Made by a program: the position numbers and the translations under genes. The notes under the pieces were generated by a model. That model was not told the DNA's origin. It did no database searches and worked only from the letters and a program-made list of their open reading frames with translations. A DNA stretch of 64,000 bases from Sediminibacterium soli (lineage in GTDB: Bacteria > Bacteroidota > Bacteroidia > Chitinophagales > Chitinophagaceae). Positions 463 through 50,448 of the stretch are shown piece by piece. Position 1 is the stretch's first letter. The number at the start of each line of letters is the position of its first letter. The stretch is from contig NZ_JAACJR010000003.1 of NCBI RefSeq assembly GCF_009939225.1, forward strand, positions 186,001 through 250,000. Direction: 5' to 3'.

Positions 463-494
463 TTTGTTTTTTTAAAAAGGCGGGAGTATATTCG
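463..494 (+). promoter_or_regulatory. candidate promoter of the ilv operon
   Basis: TTTG at 463-466 is followed after 20 nt by TATATTCG at 487-494, close to the Bacteroidota -33/-7 pattern TTTG-N19/21-TAnnTTTG. Transcription would begin near 500, about 10 nt before the leader-peptide start at 511. That is the compact layout expected for an attenuated operon. The assignment rests on motif and spacing only. Confidence 0.45.
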
Positions 495-510
495 TTCTGA
501 CAAATCTTTT

Positions 511-615
511 ATGTTCAGAAACAGGATACATACGGTAATGGGTATTGCTACGGTAATTATTATTGTGGTAGTCATTATTGTCCCTGTACTGCATGGAGGA
601 GGCGTTCATTGCTGA
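511..615 (+). CDS. ilv operon leader peptide (34 aa), attenuation control
   Basis: This is a 34-codon ORF starting ATG at 511 and ending TGA at 613-615. The central stretch ATVIIIVVVIIVPVL contains uninterrupted runs of Ile and Val codons, directly comparable in composition and position to enterobacterial ilvL leader peptides. It sits between a candidate promoter (463-494) and a perfect terminator hairpin (636-669), immediately upstream of ilvE. Inferred role: the ribosome stalls at the Ile/Val codons when charged tRNA-Ile or tRNA-Val is scarce, which frees 598-604 to pair with 641-647 and prevents terminator formation. The peptide itself probably has no other function. Codons 29-32 and the stop overlap or lie next to the antiterminator 5' arm, as the mechanism requires. 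Confidence 0.85.
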   Translation: MFRNRIHTVMGIATVIIIVVVIIVPVLHGGGVHC

Positions 616-647
616 TTAAAGCGAACCAACATACGAACCCCGCCTCC
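598..647 (+). promoter_or_regulatory. antiterminator pairing of the ilv attenuator
   Basis: GGAGGCG at 598-604, inside the last leader codons, is perfectly complementary to CGCCTCC at 641-647, which is also most of the 5' arm of the terminator. The two structures are mutually exclusive. A ribosome that reaches the leader stop at 613-615 would cover 598-604 and allow termination. A ribosome stalled on the Ile/Val codons (544-588) leaves it free. A further TTC/GAA pairing (605-607 with 635-637) can extend the stem past a bulge. Confidence 0.75.
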
Positions 648-669
648 ACCAGGCGGGGTTTTTTGTTTT
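636..669 (+). terminator. ilv attenuator terminator
   Basis: There is a perfect 10-bp stem: AACCCCGCCT (636-645), loop CCACC (646-650) and AGGCGGGGTT (651-660), followed by TTTTGTTTT. This is a strong Rho-independent terminator placed between the leader-peptide stop (615) and the ilvE start (685), so it can only act as a premature, conditional terminator of the ilv mRNA. Confidence 0.9.
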
Positions 670-684
670 CGCCCGGTAAAAACA

Positions 685-1602
685 ATGTATATGGCAAGTT
701 ATTATGACAACAACACGGTGATCTATCACAACGGCGCTTTTGTAAAAGCCGCCGATGCAAAAATGGACCTCTACAGCCAGTCGCTGCACTATGGCTATTC
801 TGTTTTCGAGGGCATTCGTTCCTACAGGACGGCAGACGGTGAAACAAAGATCTTTAAGGTAAAAGAACACTACGACAGGCTGCAGGCTTCTGCCGCGGCG
901 CTGAACCTGCCTTACACATGGAATACGCAGGAGCTGACTGATATCACTTACGAAGTGCTGAACCGAAACGGACTGGGCGATGCGTATATACGTCCGGTGA
1001 TCTATGCGCCGGCAAATATGTCGTTCAACCCGAACGCCGAATCATTGATCGTAATAGAGGCATGGGAGATGGCGCCGTTCCTGGGAGAGAAACTGCTGCG
1101 TGTGACGGTATCGTCTTTCCAGCGTCCCAATCCCAAAGGATTTAAGATACATGCCAAGGCGGCAGGTCATTATGTGAATTCGATCCTGGCCAGCCAGGAA
1201 GCAAAAGGCAAAGGCTATGATGAAGCCCTGCTGCTCGATATGAACGATAAAATAGCCGAAGCGCCGGGTGCGAATGTGTTTTTCGAAAAAGCAGGCGTGT
1301 TGTATACCCCTGCGCTTGGCAACATACTGCCAGGTATTACAAGGGCCACGGTGCTGGAACTGTGCGATGAGTTGAACATACGCGTTGTGGAAGGGCAGTT
1401 TACCCAGCAGGACCTATACGGCGCGGATGCCGCTTTCTTCTGCGGAACGGCTGCAGAAGTGGTGGGTTTTCAGTCGCTGGATGATGTTGGTTTTGCAATG
1501 CCATGGGAAGAAACGCAAAGCAGGCTGGTACAGATTGCGTACAAAAACCTGGTGGTGGAGAATAAGACGGAATTGGTAAATGAAATAACAGGGATTGAAT
1601 AA
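685..1602 (+). CDS. ilvE: branched-chain amino acid aminotransferase
   Basis: A PLP fold-type IV transaminase that interconverts 2-oxo acids and Leu/Ile/Val with glutamate; cytosolic. The 305-aa length is normal for the family. The catalytic lysine is K158 in HAKAAGHYVNS, matching the KAGGNY motif of E. coli IlvE. The segment GNILPGITRATVLELC and the substrate/PLP loop FFCGTAAEV are also typical. Two in-frame ATGs lie six bases apart (685 and 691), and either could be used. It is the first structural gene after the attenuator and starts 16 nt past its T-tract. A perfect hairpin follows in the gap to ilvD. Confidence 0.95.
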   Translation: MYMASYYDNNTVIYHNGAFVKAADAKMDLYSQSLHYGYSVFEGIRSYRTADGETKIFKVKEHYDRLQASAAALNLPYTWNTQELTDITYEVLNRNGLGDAYIRPVIYAPANMSFNPNAESLIVIEAWEMAPFLGEKLLRVTVSSFQRPNPKGFKIHAKAAGHYVNSILASQEAKGKGYDEALLLDMNDKIAEAPGANVFFEKAGVLYTPALGNILPGITRATVLELCDELNIRVVEGQFTQQDLYGADAAFFCGTAAEVVGFQSLDDVGFAMPWEETQSRLVQIAYKNLVVENKTELVNEITGIE

Positions 1603-1636: not shown

Positions 1637-3322
1637 ATGGCAGAGTTAAACAAATACAGCAAAACGATCACACAGGATGTGACGCAGCCGGGCGCGCAGG
1701 CGATGCTTTACGCGATCGGTTTTAAAGACGAAGATTTTCAGAAGGCACAGGTAGGCATTGCCAGTATGGGATGGGACGGCAACCCCTGTAACATGCACCT
1801 CAACGACCTGGCCACTACAGCACGCGCCAGCGTGAACGGAGTGGAGGGACTGATCGGTCTTCGTTTTCATACCATTGGTGTAAGCGATGGTATCAGTATG
1901 GGAACGGATGGCATGCGCTACAGCCTGGTGAGCCGCGATGTGATTGCCGACAGTATCGAAACAAATGCTGGTGCACAATATTATGATGCGCTGATCACGA
2001 TCCCCGGCTGTGATAAAAATATGCCCGGATCGATCATGGCCATGGCCAGGCTGAACCGCCCGTCGATCATGTTATACGGCGGAACCATTGCGCCGGGGCA
2101 TTACAAAGGGCAGGACCTGAACCTGGTTTCTGCCTTCGAAGCATTGGGACAGAAAATAGCCGGCACGCTCGATGAAAGCGATTTTAAAGGCATCGTTCGT
2201 CACGCCTGTCCTGGCGCCGGCGCATGCGGCGGTATGTATACGGCCAATACCATGGCAAGTGCGATTGAAGCGCTGGGTATGAGCCTGCCTTATTCCTCTT
2301 CCAATCCTGCGATGAGCGAGGAAAAACAGAAAGAATGCGCGGAGGTTGGCAAAGCGATCAGGTTATTGCTCGAAAAAGATATCAAACCCAAAGACATCAT
2401 GACGCGTAAGGCGTTCGAGAACGCCATTACGGTGATCATGGTACTGGGCGGAAGCACCAATGCCGTACTGCACCTGATCGCCATGGCCAAAGCCGTAGGC
2501 GTACAGCTTACGCAGGATGATTTTCAGGCTGTCAGCGACAAAGTGCCCGTACTGGCCGATTTCAAGCCAAGCGGTAAATACCTGATGGAAGACCTGCACG
2601 CGCATGGCGGCGTACCCGCGGTGATGAGGTATTTACTGAGCAAGGGTATGCTGCACGGCGATTGTCTTACCGTAACGGGAAAAACCGTTGCCGAGAACCT
2701 GGCCAATGCCCCGGTGCTGGATTTTACAAAGCAGGATATCATCTATCCGCTGGAAAAACCATTGAAAGCAACCGGTCACTTGCAGATACTCTACGGCAAT
2801 CTTGCCGAGGGTGGCAGTGTTGCCAAGATCAGCGGTAAAGAAGGCGAGCGTTTTGAAGGAACGGCCCGCGTATTCGACGGGGAGCATGAGCTCATTGCCG
2901 GACTGGCAAGCGGCCGCGTGCATGCCCGTGATGTGGTGGTGATCCGCAATATCGGTCCCAAAGGCGCGCCCGGTATGCCCGAAATGCTGAAACCAACCGG
3001 CGCGATTATTGGGGCCGGACTGGGTAAATCGGTGGCGCTGATCACCGACGGCAGGTTCAGCGGCGGCACACATGGATTCGTGGTGGGACATATCACCCCC
3101 GAAGCATTTGACGGCGGCCTGATAGGTCTGGTAAAAGACGACGATATCATAGAGATAGACGCAGTGAAAAACAGCCTTACGCTGAAAGTGCCCGATGAAG
3201 AGATCGCCAGACGTAAAAAGGAATGGAAACAGCCTTCTCTGAAAGCAACATCAGGTGTTTTATATAAATACGCAAAACTGGTACGTCCCGCATCAGAAGG
3301 ATGCGTGACAGATGAAAACTGA
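1637..3322 (+). CDS. ilvD: dihydroxy-acid dehydratase
   Basis: An iron-sulfur dehydratase that converts 2,3-dihydroxy-isovalerate and 2,3-dihydroxy-3-methylvalerate to the 2-oxo acids used by IlvE. The length of 561 aa is typical. Cluster ligand regions are visible: [17 protein letters not shown], and [19 protein letters not shown] with its CxGxCG-type cysteines. [10 protein letters not shown] and [16 protein letters not shown] are IlvD/Edd family signatures, and [14 protein letters not shown] near the C-terminus is also conserved. It is the second structural gene of the ilv operon, and the downstream gap to ilvB holds a long inverted repeat. Confidence 0.97.
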
Positions 3323-3414: not shown

Positions 3415-5151
3415 ATGAATACAGTTGAAGACATCAAACCCGCTGCAGCCGCTAAAGCAACAACAGAACTGTCGGGTTCGCAGGCTGTGCTGGAAGCATT
3501 GATAGCCGAGAGTGTGGATACCATTTTCGGTTATCCCGGCGGTGCCATCATGCCTATCTATGATGCTTTGTATGACTACCACGAGAAGCTGAAACACATC
3601 CTGGTCCGTCATGAGCAGGGAGGCATTCATGCAGCGCAGGGATATGCCAGGTCGTCGGGTAAGGTAGGCGTTGTGTTTGCCACCAGCGGACCCGGTGCCA
3701 CCAACCTGGTAACGGGACTGGCAGATGCCATGATCGACAGTACGCCATTGGTTGCCATCACCGGTCAGGTGTTTGCACACCTGCTCGGCACGGATGCGTT
3801 CCAGGAGACAGATGTAATCAATATCACCACGCCTGTTACCAAGTGGAATTACCAGGTAACCGATGCAACGGAGATACCTGCCGTGCTGGCCAAAGCATTT
3901 TATATCGCGCGCAGCGGCAGACCGGGGCCGGTGCTGATCGATATCACCAAGAATGCGCAGCTGCAGAAGTTTGCGTACAAGGGATATGAAAAGAGCTGCC
4001 ATGTGCGCAGCTATCGCCCCAAACCGATCGTCCGCAAAGAATATGTGGAAGAAGCGGCCAGGCTGATCAATGCGGCGGAAAAACCGTTCATTGTATTCGG
4101 TCAGGGTGTGATACTGGGTAAGGCGGAAAAAGAATTCCGCGCATTTGTGGAAAAATCAGGTATCCCGGCGGCCTGGACAATACTCGGATTGAGTGCCTTG
4201 CCAACCGATCACCCGCTGAATGTGGGTATGCTTGGTATGCATGGCAACTACGGACCCAATGTGATGACGAATGAATGCGATGTACTGATCGCCATCGGTA
4301 TGCGCTTCGATGACCGTGTTACCGGCAGGCTCGATAAATATGCAAAGCAGGCGAAAGTCATTCATCTTGATATCGATCCCGCAGAAATAGACAAGAATGT
4401 AAAAGCAACCGTTGGCGTTTGGGGCGACTGTAAAGAAACACTGCCTATGCTGACCAAACTGGTTGAGGAAAGGGTGTACCCAAAATGGGTGGAGAAATTC
4501 CGCGCCTACGAGCAGGAAGAGAACAAGGAAGTGGTGTTTGAAGAATTGCATCCGTCTACGGAGAAGATGACCATGGGCGAGGTATTGCGTAACCTGAATG
4601 AACTCACCGGCGGCGATGCGATCATTGTCACCGATGTGGGCCAGCACCAGATGGTGGCCTGCCGGTATGCCAAATTCAACCAGACAAGAAGCAATATCAC
4701 ATCGGGTGGTTTGGGTACGATGGGCTTTGCGCTGCCCGCTGCGATAGGCGCCAAATTCGGGGCCATGGACAGAACGGTGGTAGCCATCATCGGCGATGGG
4801 GGCGTACAGATGACGATACAGGAACTGGGAACCATTATGCAGACGGATCTCGATGTGAAAATATTGATCCTAAACAACGAATTCCTGGGTATGGTGCGGC
4901 AGTGGCAGCAATTGTTCCACGATAAGCGTTATTCTTTCGTGGATATTACCAGCCCGGATTATGTACAGGTTGCCAAAGGATATGGTATTGACGGAAACAA
5001 AGTAACCGATCGGAAAAACCTCAGACAGTCATTGCAGACTATGCTGGAACACAAAGGCTCTTACCTGCTCGAAGTAATGGTGGGAAAAGAGAACAATGTT
5101 TTCCCGATGGTGCCACAGGGATGCAGTGTAAGCGAAATACGTTTAAAATAA
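3415..5151 (+). CDS. ilvB: acetolactate synthase, large (catalytic) subunit
   Basis: A ThDP- and FAD-dependent carboligase that makes 2-acetolactate or 2-aceto-2-hydroxybutyrate from pyruvate (plus 2-oxobutyrate). The domain order is ThDP-binding N-domain (GYPGGAIMPIYDAL, with the catalytic Glu in RHEQGG), central FAD-type domain, and C-terminal ThDP domain with the IIGDGG and LNNEFLGMVRQWQ motifs. The length of 578 aa is standard. It is followed within 5 nt by ilvN, so the subunits are translated together. 2-Oxobutyrate, the isoleucine branch substrate, is supplied by IlvA encoded two genes downstream. Confidence 0.97.
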   Translation: MNTVEDIKPAAAAKATTELSGSQAVLEALIAESVDTIFGYPGGAIMPIYDALYDYHEKLKHILVRHEQGGIHAAQGYARSSGKVGVVFATSGPGATNLVTGLADAMIDSTPLVAITGQVFAHLLGTDAFQETDVINITTPVTKWNYQVTDATEIPAVLAKAFYIARSGRPGPVLIDITKNAQLQKFAYKGYEKSCHVRSYRPKPIVRKEYVEEAARLINAAEKPFIVFGQGVILGKAEKEFRAFVEKSGIPAAWTILGLSALPTDHPLNVGMLGMHGNYGPNVMTNECDVLIAIGMRFDDRVTGRLDKYAKQAKVIHLDIDPAEIDKNVKATVGVWGDCKETLPMLTKLVEERVYPKWVEKFRAYEQEENKEVVFEELHPSTEKMTMGEVLRNLNELTGGDAIIVTDVGQHQMVACRYAKFNQTRSNITSGGLGTMGFALPAAIGAKFGAMDRTVVAIIGDGGVQMTIQELGTIMQTDLDVKILILNNEFLGMVRQWQQLFHDKRYSFVDITSPDYVQVAKGYGIDGNKVTDRKNLRQSLQTMLEHKGSYLLEVMVGKENNVFPMVPQGCSVSEIRLK

Positions 5152-5156
5152 ACAGC

Positions 5157-5744
5157 ATGAAACAGGAATTCACCATAACCGTTTACGCGGAAAACCATAT
5201 CGGCCTGCTGGTTCGTGTGGCCACGATTTTTTCGAGAAGAAAGATCAATATAGAGAGCCTCGGAACATCGCCTTCCGAAATAGAAGGCATACACCGCCTC
5301 ACCATCGTGATCGAAGAGACCGAGGAAGTGGTGCGCAAACTGGCGCGCCAGATAGAAAAACAGGTTGAGGTACTGAAAGTGTACTATAATAACGGCGAGG
5401 AAATCGTATGGCAGGAACTGGCATTGTATAAAGTGCCCACAGACGTGATTGCCGAGAAAGTAAAAGTGGAACGCCTGCTTCGTGAGTACGGCGCCCGGGC
5501 TGTTGTGATCAGAAAAGACTATACCATTTTCGAAACCAGCGGCCACAGGGAAGAAACAGATAAACTCGTGAATGTGCTGGCGCCGTACGGACTGATAGAA
5601 TTTGTGAGAAGCGCACGCGTGGCCATCATCAAAAACAGCAAAGGCTTCCACGAAAAACTCAAGGAATTCGAAGAAACAGAACCCGGCCAGGAAGTGGTGG
5701 AGAATGAATTCCTGAACAAACAGGACGAAGTGTTTACGATGTGA
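5157..5744 (+). CDS. ilvN: acetolactate synthase, small (regulatory) subunit
   Basis: ACT-domain regulatory subunit that stimulates IlvB and confers valine feedback. The N-terminal ACT domain begins FTITVYAENHIGLLVRVATI and contains INIESLGTSPSE. A longer C-terminal domain follows, giving 195 aa, the longer form of the subunit. The frame is open back to 5121, but the ATG at 5157 is preferred because it lies 5 nt after the ilvB stop and begins right at the ACT domain. A block of 15-nt repeats follows in the gap to ilvC. Confidence 0.95.
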   Translation: MKQEFTITVYAENHIGLLVRVATIFSRRKINIESLGTSPSEIEGIHRLTIVIEETEEVVRKLARQIEKQVEVLKVYYNNGEEIVWQELALYKVPTDVIAEKVKVERLLREYGARAVVIRKDYTIFETSGHREETDKLVNVLAPYGLIEFVRSARVAIIKNSKGFHEKLKEFEETEPGQEVVENEFLNKQDEVFTM

Positions 5745-5821: not shown

Positions 5822-6880
5822 ATGGCAAAATTAAATTTCGGCGGAGTGGAAGAGAATGTTGTGACTCGCGATGAGTTTCCCCTGGCAAAAGCGCAGGAAG
5901 TTCTGAAGAACGAAGTAGTGGCGGTGATCGGCTACGGCGTACAGGGACCCGGCCAGGCATTGAACCAGAAAGAAAATGGTGTCAACGTAATCGTTGGTCA
6001 GCGTAAAAATTCCAAAAGCTGGGATAAGGCCGTGAAAGATGGTTTTGTACCGGGGCAGACACTCTTTGAAATCGAAGAAGCGCTCGAGAAAGGAACGATC
6101 ATCTGTTACCTGCTCAGCGACGCTGCCCAGATAGCTATGTGGCCCACGGTAAAAAAACACCTTACGCCGGGCAAGGCGCTGTATTTCTCCCACGGCTTTG
6201 GTGTTACGTATAACGACCAGACAGGCATCATACCTCCTGCGGATGTGGATGTGTTTCTGGTGGCACCGAAAGGTTCGGGTACCTCGCTGCGCAGGATGTT
6301 CCTGCAGGGCCGCGGTCTGAACAGCAGCTACGCCATCTTCCAGGATGCCACGGGCCGTGCATATGAAAGAGTGGTGGCACTGGGCATCGCCATCGGCAGC
6401 GGATACCTGTTCGAAACCGATTTCAAAAAAGAAGTGTACAGCGATCTTACCGGCGAACGCGGTACGCTGATGGGAGCGATACAGGGAATTTTTGCGGCTC
6501 AGTACCAGGTGCTGCGCTCCAAAGGGCATTCGCCTTCGGAAGCATTCAATGAAACCGTTGAAGAACTTACGCAGTCACTGATGCCGCTGGTGGCTGAGAA
6601 TGGTATGGACTGGATGTATGCAAACTGTTCCACTACCGCGCAGCGCGGTGCACTTGACTGGTGGAAAAAATTCCGCGACGCCACTTTGCCCGTATTCACC
6701 GAATTGTATGAAAGCGTGGCGGCAGGCAAGGAAGCCGGTAAATCTATCGAAAGCAACAGCAAAACAGATTACCGCGAGAAGCTGGAAGAAGAACTGAAAG
6801 AACTCCGCGAAAGCGAAATGTGGCAGGCAGGCAAAACGGTAAGAGGCCTGCGTCCCGAAAACCAGCAGGCTGCCTCCTGA
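5822..6880 (+). CDS. ilvC: ketol-acid reductoisomerase (NADP+)
   Basis: Isomerises and reduces 2-acetolactate and 2-aceto-2-hydroxybutyrate to dihydroxy acids with NADPH and Mg2+. The N-terminal Rossmann domain carries GYGVQGPGQALN. The cofactor loop GQRKNSKSW has basic and Ser residues fitting NADPH. FSHGFGV and VAPKGSGTSLRR are family motifs, and DLTGERGTLMG in the all-helical domain supplies the Mg2+-binding Asp/Glu. At 352 aa it matches the short (class I) form. A hairpin at 6907-6950 may end the ilvE-ilvC transcript, but ilvA follows in the same direction after 155 nt. Confidence 0.95.
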   Translation: MAKLNFGGVEENVVTRDEFPLAKAQEVLKNEVVAVIGYGVQGPGQALNQKENGVNVIVGQRKNSKSWDKAVKDGFVPGQTLFEIEEALEKGTIICYLLSDAAQIAMWPTVKKHLTPGKALYFSHGFGVTYNDQTGIIPPADVDVFLVAPKGSGTSLRRMFLQGRGLNSSYAIFQDATGRAYERVVALGIAIGSGYLFETDFKKEVYSDLTGERGTLMGAIQGIFAAQYQVLRSKGHSPSEAFNETVEELTQSLMPLVAENGMDWMYANCSTTAQRGALDWWKKFRDATLPVFTELYESVAAGKEAGKSIESNSKTDYREKLEEELKELRESEMWQAGKTVRGLRPENQQAAS

Positions 6881-6906: not shown

Positions 6907-6950
6907 GAAAAGAAGGCGATACGGGTGTCAAAACCTATGGCCTTCTTTTC
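6907..6950 (+). terminator. candidate terminator or attenuating hairpin after ilvC
   Basis: Perfect 11-bp inverted repeat: GAAAAGAAGGC at 6907-6917 with GCCTTCTTTTC at 6940-6950, 22-nt loop, pyrimidine-rich 3' side (TCTCTTCC). It sits between ilvC and ilvA and could partly separate expression of ilvA from the upstream operon. The long loop makes strong termination uncertain. Confidence 0.5.
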
Positions 6951-7035
6951 TCTCTTCCTGTCGGCAGGAAGTCTGTGGATGGGCACCATCGCCGGTTACC
7001 CTGCCCGCAGAGTACCTGAAACCGCAGACAACAAA

Positions 7036-8295
7036 ATGCAAAAACAGTACACCCTACCGGTTCCGCAGCTCGATTTTCAATCGGCCGTATTGCGGCTTAA
7101 GAACGTTGCCACGCGTACACCGCTTACGTTCAGTCTCAGCCTCTCACGCAGGTACCAGTGCAATGTTTACCTGAAAAGAGAAGATCTTCAGGTGGTGCGC
7201 TCCTATAAACTGCGCGGGGCCTACAATATGATGAACAGTTTGCCGCAGGCGCAGCTGAAAAAAGGGGTGGTATGCGCCAGCGCCGGTAACCATGCACAGG
7301 GGTTTGCCTATAGCTGTAAAAAACTGGATGTGAAAGGTGTGGTATTCATGCCGATCATTACTCCGAACCAGAAAGTGAACCAGACAAAAATGTTCGGGGA
7401 TGGTAACGTAGAAGTAAAACTGGTAGGCGATACTTTTGACGACTGCGCGGTTGCCGCGAAGCATTTTACCGCGGAACACGGCATGACATTTATCCCGCCA
7501 TTTGAAGATATCAGGATCATTGAAGGACAGGCAACCGTAGGCATAGAGATACTGGAGGATCAGCCGGATATCGACTACCTGTTTGTTCCCGTCGGCGGAG
7601 GCGGACTGTGTTCGGGGGTGGGCACGTATTTCAAGACCTTTTCCCCAAAAACAAAGATCATCGGTCTGGAACCCGAGGGCGCACCTTCCATGAAACGCGC
7701 CATCGAAAACGGCGCCCCCATAACACTCGGACAGATAGAACGTTTTGTGGACGGGGCTGCAGTACAGCGCGTGGGCGATCTTACATTCAGTATCTGTAAG
7801 GAAGTATTGGACGATATGCACCTTGTTCCCGAGGGGAAAGTATGTTCTACGATCCTGAAACTGTATAATGAAAACGCGATCGTGGTGGAACCCGCCGGGG
7901 CCCTGTCGATAGCCGCACTGGACGATTATGCAGAAGAGATCAGGGGAAAGAATGTGGTTTGCATTGTCAGCGGCAGCAACAATGATATCGATCGCATGCA
8001 GGAAATCAAAGAGCGTTCGCTGCAGTATGAGGGACTGAAACATTACTTCCTGGTACGTTTTGCACAGCGCCCGGGGGCATTGAAGGAATTTGTGAACCAT
8101 GTGCTCGGTCCCGACGACGATATCACCCGTTTTGAATACATGCAGAAGCACAACAAGGAAACAGGTCCGGCACTGGTGGGTATTGAACTGAAATCCAAAT
8201 GCGATTATGAAAAGCTGCTGGCGAACATGCAGCGGTACCAGATCAACTTTACGGAATTAAGACAGGATGATAACCTGTTCGGATACCTTGTATAA
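7036..8295 (+). CDS. ilvA: threonine dehydratase (deaminase), biosynthetic
   Basis: A PLP enzyme that converts threonine to 2-oxobutyrate, the committed step to isoleucine. The catalytic lysine is K58 in SYKLRGAYNMM. The PLP loop GNHAQGFAY and the glycine-rich phosphate loop VGGGGLCSG are present. The C-terminal ~85 residues (HYFLVRFAQRPGALKEFVNH...) form a single ACT-like regulatory domain, consistent with isoleucine feedback control. The frame is open to 6925, but the ATG at 7036 begins at the normal N-terminus and gives 419 aa, typical of the short form. It lies between ilvC and thrABC, linking the two pathways. Confidence 0.95.
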   Translation: MQKQYTLPVPQLDFQSAVLRLKNVATRTPLTFSLSLSRRYQCNVYLKREDLQVVRSYKLRGAYNMMNSLPQAQLKKGVVCASAGNHAQGFAYSCKKLDVKGVVFMPIITPNQKVNQTKMFGDGNVEVKLVGDTFDDCAVAAKHFTAEHGMTFIPPFEDIRIIEGQATVGIEILEDQPDIDYLFVPVGGGGLCSGVGTYFKTFSPKTKIIGLEPEGAPSMKRAIENGAPITLGQIERFVDGAAVQRVGDLTFSICKEVLDDMHLVPEGKVCSTILKLYNENAIVVEPAGALSIAALDDYAEEIRGKNVVCIVSGSNNDIDRMQEIKERSLQYEGLKHYFLVRFAQRPGALKEFVNHVLGPDDDITRFEYMQKHNKETGPALVGIELKSKCDYEKLLANMQRYQINFTELRQDDNLFGYLV

Positions 8296-8349: not shown

Positions 8350-8445
8350 ATGATACAGCAGCAGTCATACAACCGTATTTCTACCCAAACAGTCTCCCTG
8401 TTTGCGGCTGCTATTATTACGATTACATCTACAACAACCCTGTAA
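8350..8445 (+). CDS. thr operon leader peptide (31 aa), putative attenuation control
   Basis: This 31-codon ORF runs from ATG at 8350 to TAA at 8443-8445, 88 nt upstream of thrA. Its C-terminal half, AAAIITITSTTTL, is dense in Thr and Ile codons, and the RIST segment near residue 9 recalls the start of E. coli ThrL. Thr plus Ile codons are what a thr operon attenuator senses. The position before a bifunctional aspartokinase/homoserine dehydrogenase strongly supports this reading. Unlike the ilv leader, no strong terminator is obvious downstream. The only compact hairpin is AACCCT-GTAA-AGGGTT at 8436-8451, overlapping the stop. The peptide call is therefore firmer than the exact mechanism. Confidence 0.75.
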   Translation: MIQQQSYNRISTQTVSLFAAAIITITSTTTL

Positions 8446-8451
8446 AGGGTT
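8436..8451 (+). promoter_or_regulatory. hairpin at end of thr leader peptide
   Basis: Perfect 6-bp stem AACCCT-GTAA-AGGGTT overlapping the last leader codons and stop, followed by ATACATTTT. It may be part of an attenuator (pause or weak terminator). The T-tract is not adjacent and the stem is short, so its function is uncertain. Confidence 0.4.
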
Positions 8452-8533
8452 ATACATTTTCATATCATCGTCTGGGCTTCACAGCTGTTTTCCGACAAAG
8501 GGTCTCTCTTTTCTTTATTCACATTAACACAAC

Positions 8534-10975
8534 ATGCAGGTAGTAAAATTCGGCGGCAGTTCCGTTGCGAACGCGGCCAACATACAAAAAGTAGTATCGA
8601 TCGTTAAGGAACTGGTCGATAAAGAACCGGTGATCCTGGTGGTTTCTGCCCTAAGCGGCGTAACCGACCTGTTACTGAAAACCGGCGAGCTGGCATCGCA
8701 TGCCGATGAGTCTTACAAACCATCTCTCAAAGAAATGGAGCTGCGGCATCTTGATACAGTTCGCGAACTGTTACCGATACAGCACCAGAGCGCCACACTC
8801 AGCCTGGTAAAACAACAGTTCAACGAACTGGATAATATCTGCGACGGTGTTTTCCTTCTCGGAGAACTGTCGGCAAGAACAAAAGACAGGATCGTAAGCT
8901 ATGGAGAGCTGCTGTCTTCGCTCATCATATCCGCCACTTTTCAGTCGCTGCAGACCAACCAGCACTGGCTTGATTCGCGAAAGCTGATCGTTACCAACGA
9001 ACGGTATGGCAATGCATCGGTGGATCACCAGGCCACAGAAAAAAGAATCAGTGAATACCTTTCGCAGCACAGGCACCGGCTGTATATAGCGCCCGGGTTT
9101 ATTGCAAGCGATGCACATGGCAATACCACCACGCTGGGTCGCGGTGGCTCAGACTATACAGGCGCCATATATGCCGCGGCGGTACAGGCATCGGCACTGG
9201 AAATATGGACGGATGTAAGCGGGATGATGACGGCAGACCCGCGACTGGTTCAGAATGCAAGACCCATTGCACAGATCTCTTACCAGGAGGCAATGGAGCT
9301 CTCGCATTTTGGTGCAAAGATCATTTATCCGCCCACCATCCAGCCTGTGATGAACAGGAATATACCGGTATGGGTGAAGAATACCTTCGAGCCCGCCGCC
9401 TACGGTACGCTGATAGAAAACAAAACCACCGCATCGGATGGCATCATCCGTGGCATTTCCAGCATCAACGCGGTAAGCCTGCTAAGCCTGGAAGGAAGCG
9501 GCATGATCGGGATACCCGGTTTTTCGAAACGCCTGTTTGAAGCGCTGGCCAATGAAAATGTGAACGTAATCCTGATCACCCAAAGTTCGTCCGAACACTC
9601 TATCTGTGTTGCGATCAACGAAGCAGACACCTATAAAGCCAAACAGGCCGTTGACGGCGCATTTGACTACGAGATAAAGAACGCCCAGCTGGATCCCCTG
9701 AAAGTGGAGCTGGGTTTGTCGATCCTGGCGCTGGTGGGCGAACAGATGAAAAGCCATCCCGGCATCAGCGGTAAAATGTTCGGTGCGCTGGGCCGTAACG
9801 GTATCAATGTACGGGCGATAGCGCAGGGCTCTTCGGAGAAGAATATATCGGCGGTGATCTCTTTCCCCGATGTGCGTAAAGCGATCAACGTATTACACGA
9901 AGTGTTTTTTGAAACAACCTACAAGCAGCTGAACGTATTTATTGCGGGCGCCGGAAATGTAGGCGGCAAATTACTGGCACAGATAGCCAAGCAGGCATCG
10001 TTCCTGCAAAACGAACTGAGGCTGCAGCTGCGTGTGATCGGTATCGCCAACAGCCGCAGGATACTTTGCGAGGAAGAAGGCATCGATCTGGCTAACTGGA
10101 AAGAGCAGTTAAAAACTTCAGGAGAGGGTAATATCCATGATTTTGTACAGCAGATCATCCGTAAAAATCTTCGTAACAGCGTATTTGTAGATGTCACCGC
10201 CAATGCCGAAGTGGCATCGGTATACGGAAAACTGCTGGAGAAAAGCGTTTCCGTGGTGGCATGTAACAAGATAGCCTGCTCCTCGTCGTATGCCTCGTAC
10301 AAACAGCTGAAATCGCTGGCGAGAGAATACAACGCTTCTTTCTTTTTCGAAACCAATGTGGGCGCGGGTCTGCCGGTGATCGGCACCCTGAACGACCTGT
10401 TGCGGAGCGGCGATAAAGTAAACAGGATACAGGCGGTGTTATCGGGCACGCTCAATTTTGTATTCAATCATTACGATGGCAAACGGCCATTTGCCGAAGT
10501 GGTTCGGCAGGCGCAGGATGAAGGCTATACCGAACCGGATCCGCGGCTTGACCTGGGCGGCACCGATGTGATGCGCAAGATCATGATCCTTGCCAGGGAA
10601 GCCGGCCAGCAGCTGGAAATGGAGGATATCCACAACGAATATTTTCTGCCGCAGTCTTGTTTTGCAGGCAGCGTGGAGGACTTCTACGCAGAAATGGGGC
10701 GGCAGGAAAAACATTTCAGGGCCCTGTACGATTCGGCTGCGGCGGAGAACTGCAAACTGAAATTTGTTGCCTCATACGAGAACGGCCATGCATCTGTTGG
10801 GCTGAAGCATATTCCAGGCGACTCAGATTTTTACCACCTGTATGGAAAAGACAACCTGGTTTTGTTCTACACAGACCGCTATCCCGAACAGCCGCTGGTG
10901 ATCAAAGGCGCCGGCGCCGGCGCCGATGTAACGGCATCGGGTGTATTTGCGGATATTATCAGGGTGGCGGGATAG
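8534..10975 (+). CDS. thrA: bifunctional aspartokinase / homoserine dehydrogenase
   Basis: Catalyses the first and third steps from aspartate toward threonine: ATP-dependent phosphorylation of Asp and NAD(P)H reduction of aspartate semialdehyde. The order is an N-terminal amino-acid kinase domain (VVKFGGSSVANA; GRGGSDYTGAI), two ACT regulatory domains (roughly residues 310-465), and a C-terminal homoserine dehydrogenase beginning with FIAGAGNVGGKLL, with GAGLPVIGTLNDLL and SGTLNFVFN. The 813-aa length equals E. coli ThrA/MetL. The start ATG at 8534 gives the canonical N-terminus. It heads thrABC behind the Thr-rich leader. Confidence 0.96.
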   Translation: MQVVKFGGSSVANAANIQKVVSIVKELVDKEPVILVVSALSGVTDLLLKTGELASHADESYKPSLKEMELRHLDTVRELLPIQHQSATLSLVKQQFNELDNICDGVFLLGELSARTKDRIVSYGELLSSLIISATFQSLQTNQHWLDSRKLIVTNERYGNASVDHQATEKRISEYLSQHRHRLYIAPGFIASDAHGNTTTLGRGGSDYTGAIYAAAVQASALEIWTDVSGMMTADPRLVQNARPIAQISYQEAMELSHFGAKIIYPPTIQPVMNRNIPVWVKNTFEPAAYGTLIENKTTASDGIIRGISSINAVSLLSLEGSGMIGIPGFSKRLFEALANENVNVILITQSSSEHSICVAINEADTYKAKQAVDGAFDYEIKNAQLDPLKVELGLSILALVGEQMKSHPGISGKMFGALGRNGINVRAIAQGSSEKNISAVISFPDVRKAINVLHEVFFETTYKQLNVFIAGAGNVGGKLLAQIAKQASFLQNELRLQLRVIGIANSRRILCEEEGIDLANWKEQLKTSGEGNIHDFVQQIIRKNLRNSVFVDVTANAEVASVYGKLLEKSVSVVACNKIACSSSYASYKQLKSLAREYNASFFFETNVGAGLPVIGTLNDLLRSGDKVNRIQAVLSGTLNFVFNHYDGKRPFAEVVRQAQDEGYTEPDPRLDLGGTDVMRKIMILAREAGQQLEMEDIHNEYFLPQSCFAGSVEDFYAEMGRQEKHFRALYDSAAAENCKLKFVASYENGHASVGLKHIPGDSDFYHLYGKDNLVLFYTDRYPEQPLVIKGAGAGADVTASGVFADIIRVAG

Positions 10976-43388: not shown

Positions 43389-43459
43389 AGCCGCGTGGCC
43401 GAGCGGAAAGGCAGGGGTCTGCAAAACCTTTTACGATGGTTCGAATCCATCCGTGGCGT
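43389..43459 (+). tRNA. tRNA-Cys (GCA)
   Basis: A cloverleaf can be drawn by hand: acceptor arms AGCCGCG / CGTGGCG (6 of 7 pairs, with an A1-G72 mismatch and one G-U), D stem GCC/GGC, anticodon stem GGGGT/ACCTT with loop CTGCAAA (anticodon GCA), and T arm GATGG-TTCGAAT-CCATC. The discriminator base is T (U73), an identity element for CysRS. The 3' CCA is not encoded. A terminator follows at 43483-43509. Length 71 nt. Confidence 0.9.
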
Positions 43460-49995: not shown

Positions 49996-50128
49996 CAGCA
50001 CAATCGGCGGCGGCGCGGAAAGATTGACCGGTTTATCTCCCCAATCCCTTATCCCTGCTGCGTTTTCCCCATTTGTCAACATAGCGTGTATAACCAAATC
50101 CTGAAGTTTGAACGGCAGCGGTTTATTT

Positions 50129-50336
50129 TACAGGAGATTTTGGTTGATGCCGCAGTATCGCAGCATCATGAAAAGGGAACCGGGTGCAAATCCCGGACTA
50201 TCCCCGTAGCTGTAAGCTCATCAGTGCAAAAGAGTCGGTTATCGTTATTTTTTGCACTTCCCCGGATACCCCAGCCACTGTAGTGCCGACTGCACTATGG
50301 GAAGGCCCCGCGGAGAGTAAGTCAGAAGACCTGCCA
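50129..50336 (+). ncRNA. cobalamin (B12) riboswitch upstream of nrdBA
   Basis: The conserved aptamer blocks appear in the right order: AAAAGGGAACCGGGTGCAAA (50171-50190) with TCCCGG, CCCCGTAGCTGTAAG (50202-50216), CCACTGT...TGGGAAGG (50275-50304) and the B12-box AAGTCAGAAGACCTGCC (50319-50335). Flanking ACAGG and CCTG can close P1. About 110 nt of expression platform separate it from nrdB at 50449. Binding of cobalamin would be expected to repress the O2-dependent class I ribonucleotide reductase when a B12-dependent class II enzyme can serve; this last step is inference. Confidence 0.93.
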
Positions 50337-50448
50337 GGATCCATTATGTAACACGCTTTCGGAGGAAAAGCAGGTGTACTGGCAGCACTGTCGATTTACG
50401 TCAGGCTTCAGCACCCCGGCTTCCAACAGCACAGACCAGCGTTTAATT

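Follow-up and report, generated by a model that had tools for sequence, protein, structure and literature searches.

The leader of the Escherichia coli ilvGMEDA operon (ilvL) is a classical amino-acid attenuator. A leader ORF rich in codons for the operon's products stands before a terminator that precedes the first gene, an antiterminator excludes this terminator, and a ribosome at the leader stop codon covers the antiterminator arm. In Corynebacterium, the uORF of ilvB (ilvB-II motif), described as reported only in that genus (PMC11109978; PMC10272879), likewise combines a reading frame enriched in Ile, Leu and Val codons with a terminator stem and a complementary antiterminator before an ilv operon. 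According to a 2010 paper (PMC2965389), leader-peptide attenuation was not known outside Proteobacteria and Actinobacteria, with Firmicutes then added; PMC4833913 cites a comparative study by Lopatovskaya et al. (2010). A Flavobacterium psychrophilum transcriptome study speaks of "strong clues" for attenuation by leader peptides upstream of amino-acid operons (PMC9723704), sORFs that resemble leader peptides are mentioned for Bacteroides thetaiotaomicron (PMC7366714), and Bacteroid-trp (Rfam RF01692), a cis-regulatory RNA of Bacteroidetes linked to trp by its name, is listed in PMC2864571.

Here we describe an element in Sediminibacterium soli (Bacteroidota; Chitinophagaceae), located in a 64,000-nucleotide stretch of contig NZ_JAACJR010000003.1 (the window, to which all coordinates refer unless a locus is named). 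Positions 463–684 very probably constitute a leader-peptide attenuator that controls ilvE–ilvD–ilvB–ilvN–ilvC–ilvA by ribosome-mediated transcription attenuation. The element resembles ilvL in the features listed above, but no sequence relation between the two was found, the window type lacks a conserved protector hairpin, its arm lies inside the last leader codons as Gly-Gly-Gly, and the phylum is different. The Corynebacterium ilvB uORF differs from it in belonging to Actinobacteria and in preceding ilvBNC. The F. psychrophilum leaders share its phylum and its position before amino-acid operons, but the passage on them mentions no ilv leader and analyzes neither arms nor codons (PMC9723704). 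Bacteroid-trp matched neither the window nor, at E 0.1, the S. soli trp leader described below. The original prediction held ribosome-mediated ilv attenuation to be best documented in Gammaproteobacteria, which is too narrow, as leader-peptide control of ilv or other branched-chain amino-acid genes is also reported for Corynebacterium, Staphylococcus and Listeria.

The ilv locus of S. soli and its leader

The window opens within leuB, whose stop codon occupies 410–412. The genes that follow 3′ of leuB on the same strand are ilvE, ilvD, ilvB, ilvN, ilvC, ilvA, thrA and thrB, and a promoter-like pair, a 34-codon ORF and a strong terminator lie between leuB and ilvE. The features are:

463–466 and 487–494, forward strand: promoter-like pair, TTTG and TATATTCG, 20-nt spacer (sequence)
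511–615, forward strand: leader ORF, 34 codons and TGA (sequence; 45 of 49 family loci have one)
553–582, forward strand: ten consecutive Ile/Val codons (codons 15–24), predicted stall site (sequence)
594–607, forward strand: antiterminator 5′ arm in the last leader codons, Gly-Gly-Gly region (sequence, folding)
635–651, forward strand: region common to the antiterminator 3′ arm and the terminator 5′ arm (sequence, folding)
636–669, forward strand: intrinsic terminator, stem 636–645/651–660 and T-rich tract (fold z −5.05 for 605–670; covariation)
685–1602, forward strand: ilvE, start at 685 or 691, first gene of the putatively controlled operon (TIGR01122 above cut-off)
1637–3322, forward strand: ilvD (TIGR00110 above cut-off)
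3415–5151, forward strand: ilvB (TIGR00118 above cut-off)
5157–5744, forward strand: ilvN, start set by eye, ORF open from 5121 (TIGR00119 above cut-off, scanned from 5163)
5822–6880, forward strand: ilvC (TIGR00465 above cut-off)
6925–8295, forward strand: ilvA, ORF from 6925 (TIGR02079 above cut-off, scanned from 7027)

The true ilvA start is probably further inside the ORF than 6925. Profile matches identified leuA, leuC, leuD and a leuB fragment in the S. soli genome, the fragment falling below the cut-off because it is incomplete. Between leuD and leuB lies an ABC ATPase gene (L110, 7834–9279; best NCBIfam match ModF, below cut-off). Elsewhere in the window, a tRNA (43389–43459) and a cobalamin riboswitch (50124–50352) are the sole two Rfam matches at the gathering threshold.

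The promoter-like pair resembles the Bacteroidota promoter consensus, TTTG/TAnnTTTG, with seven of eight positions matching in the second box, and a transcription start would be expected near 500. In 31 of 43 relatives, a −7-type box occurs no more than 45 nt 5′ of the leader start codon, compared with 15% of mononucleotide shuffles. The flank of the box (~460–494) is alike in many relatives, reading AGTTCTTT ... GGCGGGTGTATATT, and this likeness exceeds the needs of a bare promoter.

The leader ORF translates to MFRNRIHTVMGIATVIIIVVVIIVPVLHGGGVHC; the same frame is also listed from an upstream GTG. The Gly-Gly-Gly codons of its tail are at the same time the antiterminator 5′ arm. The terminator stem consists of ten perfect pairs closed by a CCACC loop and is followed by T659–664, G and TTTT; the fold of 605–670 (−26.1 kcal/mol) was not equaled by any of 200 shuffles. 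The antiterminator can form in two registers, 594–604/641–651 (10 of 11 pairs) and 594–607/635–648 (12 of 14 pairs), because GGAGG is repeated, and since both registers use the 5′ arm of the terminator, each excludes it. Folds of 590–650 and 590–655 reach −19.7 and −23.0, the latter clearly better than shuffles, and the window energies of the antiterminator and terminator hairpins are almost equal (−19.6 and −20.0). The original prediction had named a promoter-like element, a 34-codon leader with an Ile/Val core, a perfect terminator at 636–669, and an antiterminator that excludes this terminator and has its 5′ arm inside the last leader codons. All of these parts were found where it placed them, though the antiterminator, given there as 7 bp (598–604 with 641–647), proved longer. 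When both strands of the window were scanned with strict settings in 566 tiles of 450 bases, only two tiles matched, both holding this element. The combination of leader, terminator and antiterminator is thus real and far beyond chance.

Folding also predicts a protector (1:2) hairpin in the window. It was not conserved in the relatives examined, so an untranslated leader may read through instead of terminating. The Ile/Val codons of the core can themselves form a hairpin, which in the family is stronger than in synonymous recodings (mean −18.8 vs −13.1 kcal/mol; p ≤ 0.05 at 20 of 43 loci). The window's own core hairpin was not better than its recodings (p 0.23), and we therefore set the core hairpin aside as support for the switch.

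Conservation in Chitinophagaceae

IlvE was found in 54 of 147 family genomes. We analyzed 50 of the 54 loci, one of which had no upstream sequence, leaving 49 testable. An Ile/Val/Leu-rich leader followed by a terminator precedes ilvE at 45 of these, and the strict scan, which also requires arm–terminator pairing, accepts 44 of 49, with no match among 196 dinucleotide shuffles or 49 reverse strands. Three alignments were drawn from the 45 loci: A1 with 44 (L007 being omitted as almost identical to L006), A3 with 39 and the peptide alignment A2 with 37. Among 30 named IlvE loci the unit is present in 23, and its named carriers include Sediminibacterium, Terrimonas, Flavobacterium beibuense, Aequorivita capsosiphonis and Chryseobacterium mucoviscidosis.

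In codons 16–24, the second base is T in 40–44 of 44 aligned sequences while the remaining positions are more variable, a mark of selection for Ile, Val or Leu. Moreover, all 81 gap runs between the ATG and the arm in A3 are multiples of three. The operon is thus preceded by a short ORF under coding selection, as an attenuator demands, and the codons of its core correspond to the products of the ilv genes that follow (45 of 49 loci). The conservation of the Ile/Val codons among Chitinophagaceae had been proposed in advance as a check, together with covariation in both stems. The codons and the terminator came out as anticipated: in the terminator, 8 of 12 aligned pairs show two-sided changes, a number reached by none of 500 shuffles. 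Within the family, the antiterminator did not follow, with only two such pairs, as many as in 102 of 500 shuffles; its arms hardly vary, which accounts for the small number. Pairing itself is nonetheless well kept, with 90.6% of cells paired between the 594–607 arm and the 641–648 region in 44 sequences vs 48–60% when the arm is slid. Leaders of the family pair hardly better with their own terminators than with foreign ones (19.7 vs 18.4), a comparison of little informative value within the family. Neither of the two refuting conditions checked in the family, loss of the Ile/Val codons and loss of the paired stems, was borne out. L040 has changed its arm and both terminator strands, and in L030 the leader stops earlier and the Gly codons are lost, with the arm kept as untranslated RNA along with a matching terminator.

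A terminator located 3′ of leuB could simply end the upstream leu operon, with the leader ORF being incidental. In line with this, leuB lies upstream in the window and at most family loci, and no strong terminator other than hairpin 636–660 was found between the leuB stop codon at 412 and ilvE. On the other hand, the unit and leuB do not always go together. At L026, L050 and L052 the unit is present although no leuB match was found upstream, and L022, L028 and L045, where leuB ends 1–5 nt before ilvE, have no attenuator; the terminator is therefore not merely that of leuB. Nor would such a role explain the Ile/Val codons, the reading frame or the matching arm. Based on the distribution of the unit relative to leuB, we rejected this explanation, which is extremely improbable. 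The arrangement at L022, L028 and L045 represents natural loss or a fused leu–ilv operon. In all, four of the 49 loci lack the unit. Genome G004 has no unit at its ilvE (L047) but has one in front of an ACT-domain protein (L111), and a genome of another family (G257) has a unit before a similar protein (L112). These lone ACT-domain proteins resemble the acetolactate synthase small subunit, at scores below the NCBIfam cut-offs.

Spread across the class and matching of arms with terminators

A class-wide search with another IlvE gave matches in 44 of 395 genomes. The scan returned 34 raw matches at these loci, and the unit was accepted at 31 of 44. L187, L222 and L223 were left out, their ORFs resembling by eye the end of an ATP synthase subunit, and the weak Leu-rich units of L208–L210 were counted as accepted. 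Outside Chitinophagaceae, this amounts to 27 of 39 loci in 13 other family groups, with 12 of 39 not accepted; with strict thresholds the count is 21 of 39, with no match among 156 shuffles or 39 reverse strands. In family group f16, 26 of 29 ilvD loci have the unit, and at two of the other three little upstream sequence is available. By comparison, the leader peptide model A2 is of narrow reach: below E 1e-4 it matches five of 395 class genomes, all of Chitinophagaceae, and it is weak outside the family. Among five weaker A2 matches inspected, one (L112) corresponded to a unit.

Arms and terminators differ widely between families. In other family groups, some leaders have GMV or RMV as their last residues and are followed by terminators such as GCCATTCCT or GCCATTCT; others end in PPG, with the arm running across the stop codon TGA. 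For the analysis of pairing and spacing, ten peptide prefixes judged to belong to other genes or frames were removed beforehand, and four similar ones with scores below 11 remained. The 75 non-redundant units from outside the family scored 19.0 on average when paired with their own terminators, compared with 13.4 (sd 0.37) for permuted combinations, and none of 2000 permutations reached the observed value. The comparison supports an antiterminator that excludes the terminator; its covariation, weak within Chitinophagaceae, is clear between families.

The same comparison bears on whether the peptide itself might be the sensor. The family leader peptides share IIIPA..GGG, Pro after Ile is frequent, and so the conserved tail PAxHGGG might be regarded as a nascent-peptide arrest sequence, with the peptide as sensor in place of tRNA charging. 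Yet the Gly codons occupy the same nucleotides as the antiterminator arm, some family leaders have no Pro, and in other family groups, whose leaders end in GMV, RMV or PPG, each arm fits the terminator of its own unit. The retention of the arm past the earlier stop codon of L030, as untranslated RNA, together with the different tails elsewhere, led us to reject an arrest peptide, for which we see next to no chance.

Arm spacing and the proposed mechanism

Measured from the first base of the last core Ile/Val/Leu codon, the arm begins at a median distance of 14 nt, and 103 of 131 units fall within 11–19 nt (53 of 56 in the family, median 15; 50 of 75 outside it). The distance from the arm to the stop codon is more spread, with an interquartile range of −18.5 to −7 compared with 13 to 16 from the last core codon. 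In the window, the last core codon is at 580, the arm starts at 594 (14 nt) and the stop codon is at 613. As established by toeprinting, a ribosome with a codon in its A site reaches ~12–13 nt further, so that an arm ~14 nt past the last core codon would just be exposed during a wait at the core. Judged by the spacing, and given a footprint of this size, the arm would be free with the ribosome at the core and covered with it at the stop codon.

The ribosome-mediated attenuation proposed for this locus would then proceed as follows. Transcription would start near 500, and a ribosome would trail the polymerase through the leader. With charged tRNA-Ile or tRNA-Val scarce, the ribosome would pause at the core, its leading edge reaching ~593 at most; the free arm (594–607) would pair with 635–651, block the terminator and allow the operon to be transcribed. 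With both charged tRNAs plentiful, the ribosome would arrive at the stop codon (613–615) and cover the arm, the terminator (636–660) would form, and the RNA would end in the T run near 664–669. Attenuation of this logic had been suspected for the locus from the outset, and the conserved codons, the stems and the matching arm argue for it.

A terminator could also be switched by a riboswitch, a T-box or a protein-binding leader, or the leader might act on ilvE translation rather than on transcription. The leader RNA does fold better than shuffles (499–675, z −4.67; 0 of 200 as good), and family leader codons beat synonymous recodings on average, at the values given above for the core. Against these possibilities, it is in its codons, arm and terminator that the leader is conserved, and no consensus structure was found in the 5′ part of the leader among relatives. 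No Rfam family reached the gathering threshold on the window's leader or on those of eight relatives, and no riboswitch or T-box appeared even among 15 weak matches with E up to 10, for which reason a riboswitch or T-box was rejected. Taken together, this group of alternatives is very unlikely. The Rfam amino-acid leader families (Leu, Thr, Trp and Phe leaders) score 20–24 bits on the window vs cut-offs of 41–55. With matches so far below the cut-offs, the relation of the ribosome-mediated attenuator proposed here to proteobacterial ones may be distant homology or convergence.

Tandem units in relatives

In 14 genomes, two units stand in series before ilvE or ilvD (L145, L146, L196, L199, L203, L211, L215, L218, L220, L170, L172, L177, L178 and L179), and one of these genomes (Aequorivita, L146) has three. 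In the class sample, tandem units occur at 7 of 39 loci. None were seen at Chitinophagaceae loci, and the window has one unit. At 12 of 15 junctions, the next start codon lies 13–30 nt past the preceding hairpin; of the others, two span greater distances, 96 and 175 nt, and that of L203 depends on the ATG chosen. The pairing is weak in the first unit of L220, the first of L178 and the second of L179, where the arm is 3′ of the stop codon. We checked eight tandem loci for a TAnnTT(T/C/A)G box. None had one between a terminator and the next start codon; 5′ of the first leader, four had the box and the other four had none in the stretch. The absence of a box between units suggests a single transcript, and hence that tandem units are terminators in series on it.

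Our literature search on tandem attenuators found no case of repeated amino-acid leaders. The tandem attenuators of Salmonella mgtCBR, which sense different signals, ATP and proline (PMC3641672), are similar in having two leader ORFs in series. Unlike them, the units of the tandem relatives all carry Ile/Val/Leu codons and have a terminator each, and the window has a single unit.

On balance, we favor the view that the window element is one module of a stackable, class-wide system, in which one, two or three leader-peptide/terminator units, arranged serially on a single transcript, would gate an ilv operon. Read-through would require a ribosome stall in every unit, making the response to Ile, Val or Leu shortage multiplicative and steep. 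The modules would vary in arm and terminator, keep cognate codons, a matching arm and one-ribosome spacing, function although no protector hairpin is conserved, and shift from one branched-chain amino-acid gene to another.

Other amino-acid leaders in the same genome and family

Two further S. soli genes, both on the minus strand (loci L151/L152), are preceded by a leader ORF and a terminator. The leader of trpE (best NCBIfam match anthranilate synthase component I, below cut-off) is the Trp-Trp-Trp peptide MTNVFQQNWWWHTNSVRGL, and that of hisG (over its cut-off) contains HTHHHHI. In both, the leader codons fit the product of the pathway, which counts in favor of attenuation at ilv as well. 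Together with the ilv leaders, they suggest that attenuation may be a general control of amino-acid synthesis in the class. The original prediction had envisaged a distant or convergent example; with units in 13 other family groups and Trp and His leaders in the same genome, the case is not isolated.

Within the window, a second leader ORF, MIQQQSYNRISTQTVSLFAAAIITITSTTTL, lies directly before thrA, between ilvA and thrA (8350–8534, forward strand). Such a Thr/Ile-rich leader precedes thrA at 28 of 30 family loci (relatives L232–L261), and 26 of the 28 have a stem of 5–8 pairs with the stop codon in or beside the loop (CAACCC-GTTAA-GGGTTG, or variants such as CAATCCGC-TAA-GCGGATTG), followed by a conserved CATAT motif. 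No strong T-run terminator was found after the window thrA leader, which had no Rfam match at E 1; it is possibly a thr leader with another mechanism. Before leuA of S. soli (L110, ~4300–4548), just 3′ of a TATATTCG box, there is a long-looped hairpin of 10 bp, GGCAGGCTAT...ATAGCCTGCC, with a T run. Its 5′ arm overlaps the ATG of a very short ORF, and the terminator scan missed it because of the long loop. This hairpin is possibly another leader-type control.

Implications

Judged by its sequence and that of its relatives, the ilv leader of S. soli is a well-supported example of a known attenuator kind in bacteria where little of it has been described, and not a new kind. The comparative study of Lopatovskaya et al. 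may already predict part of these attenuators. Leaders of this type would escape annotation, since no Rfam family reached threshold on that of the window or on those of eight relatives. The collected loci offer a broad comparative basis for leader-peptide attenuation of branched-chain amino-acid genes in the class, for which the literature we found holds hints only. Translation initiation in these bacteria is mostly independent of Shine-Dalgarno sequences, and attenuation as a general control would presuppose that transcription and translation are coupled in them. The more novel part is the tandem units of the relatives; nature here provides leaders with one, two and three units, in which the dose response of stacked attenuators could be studied.
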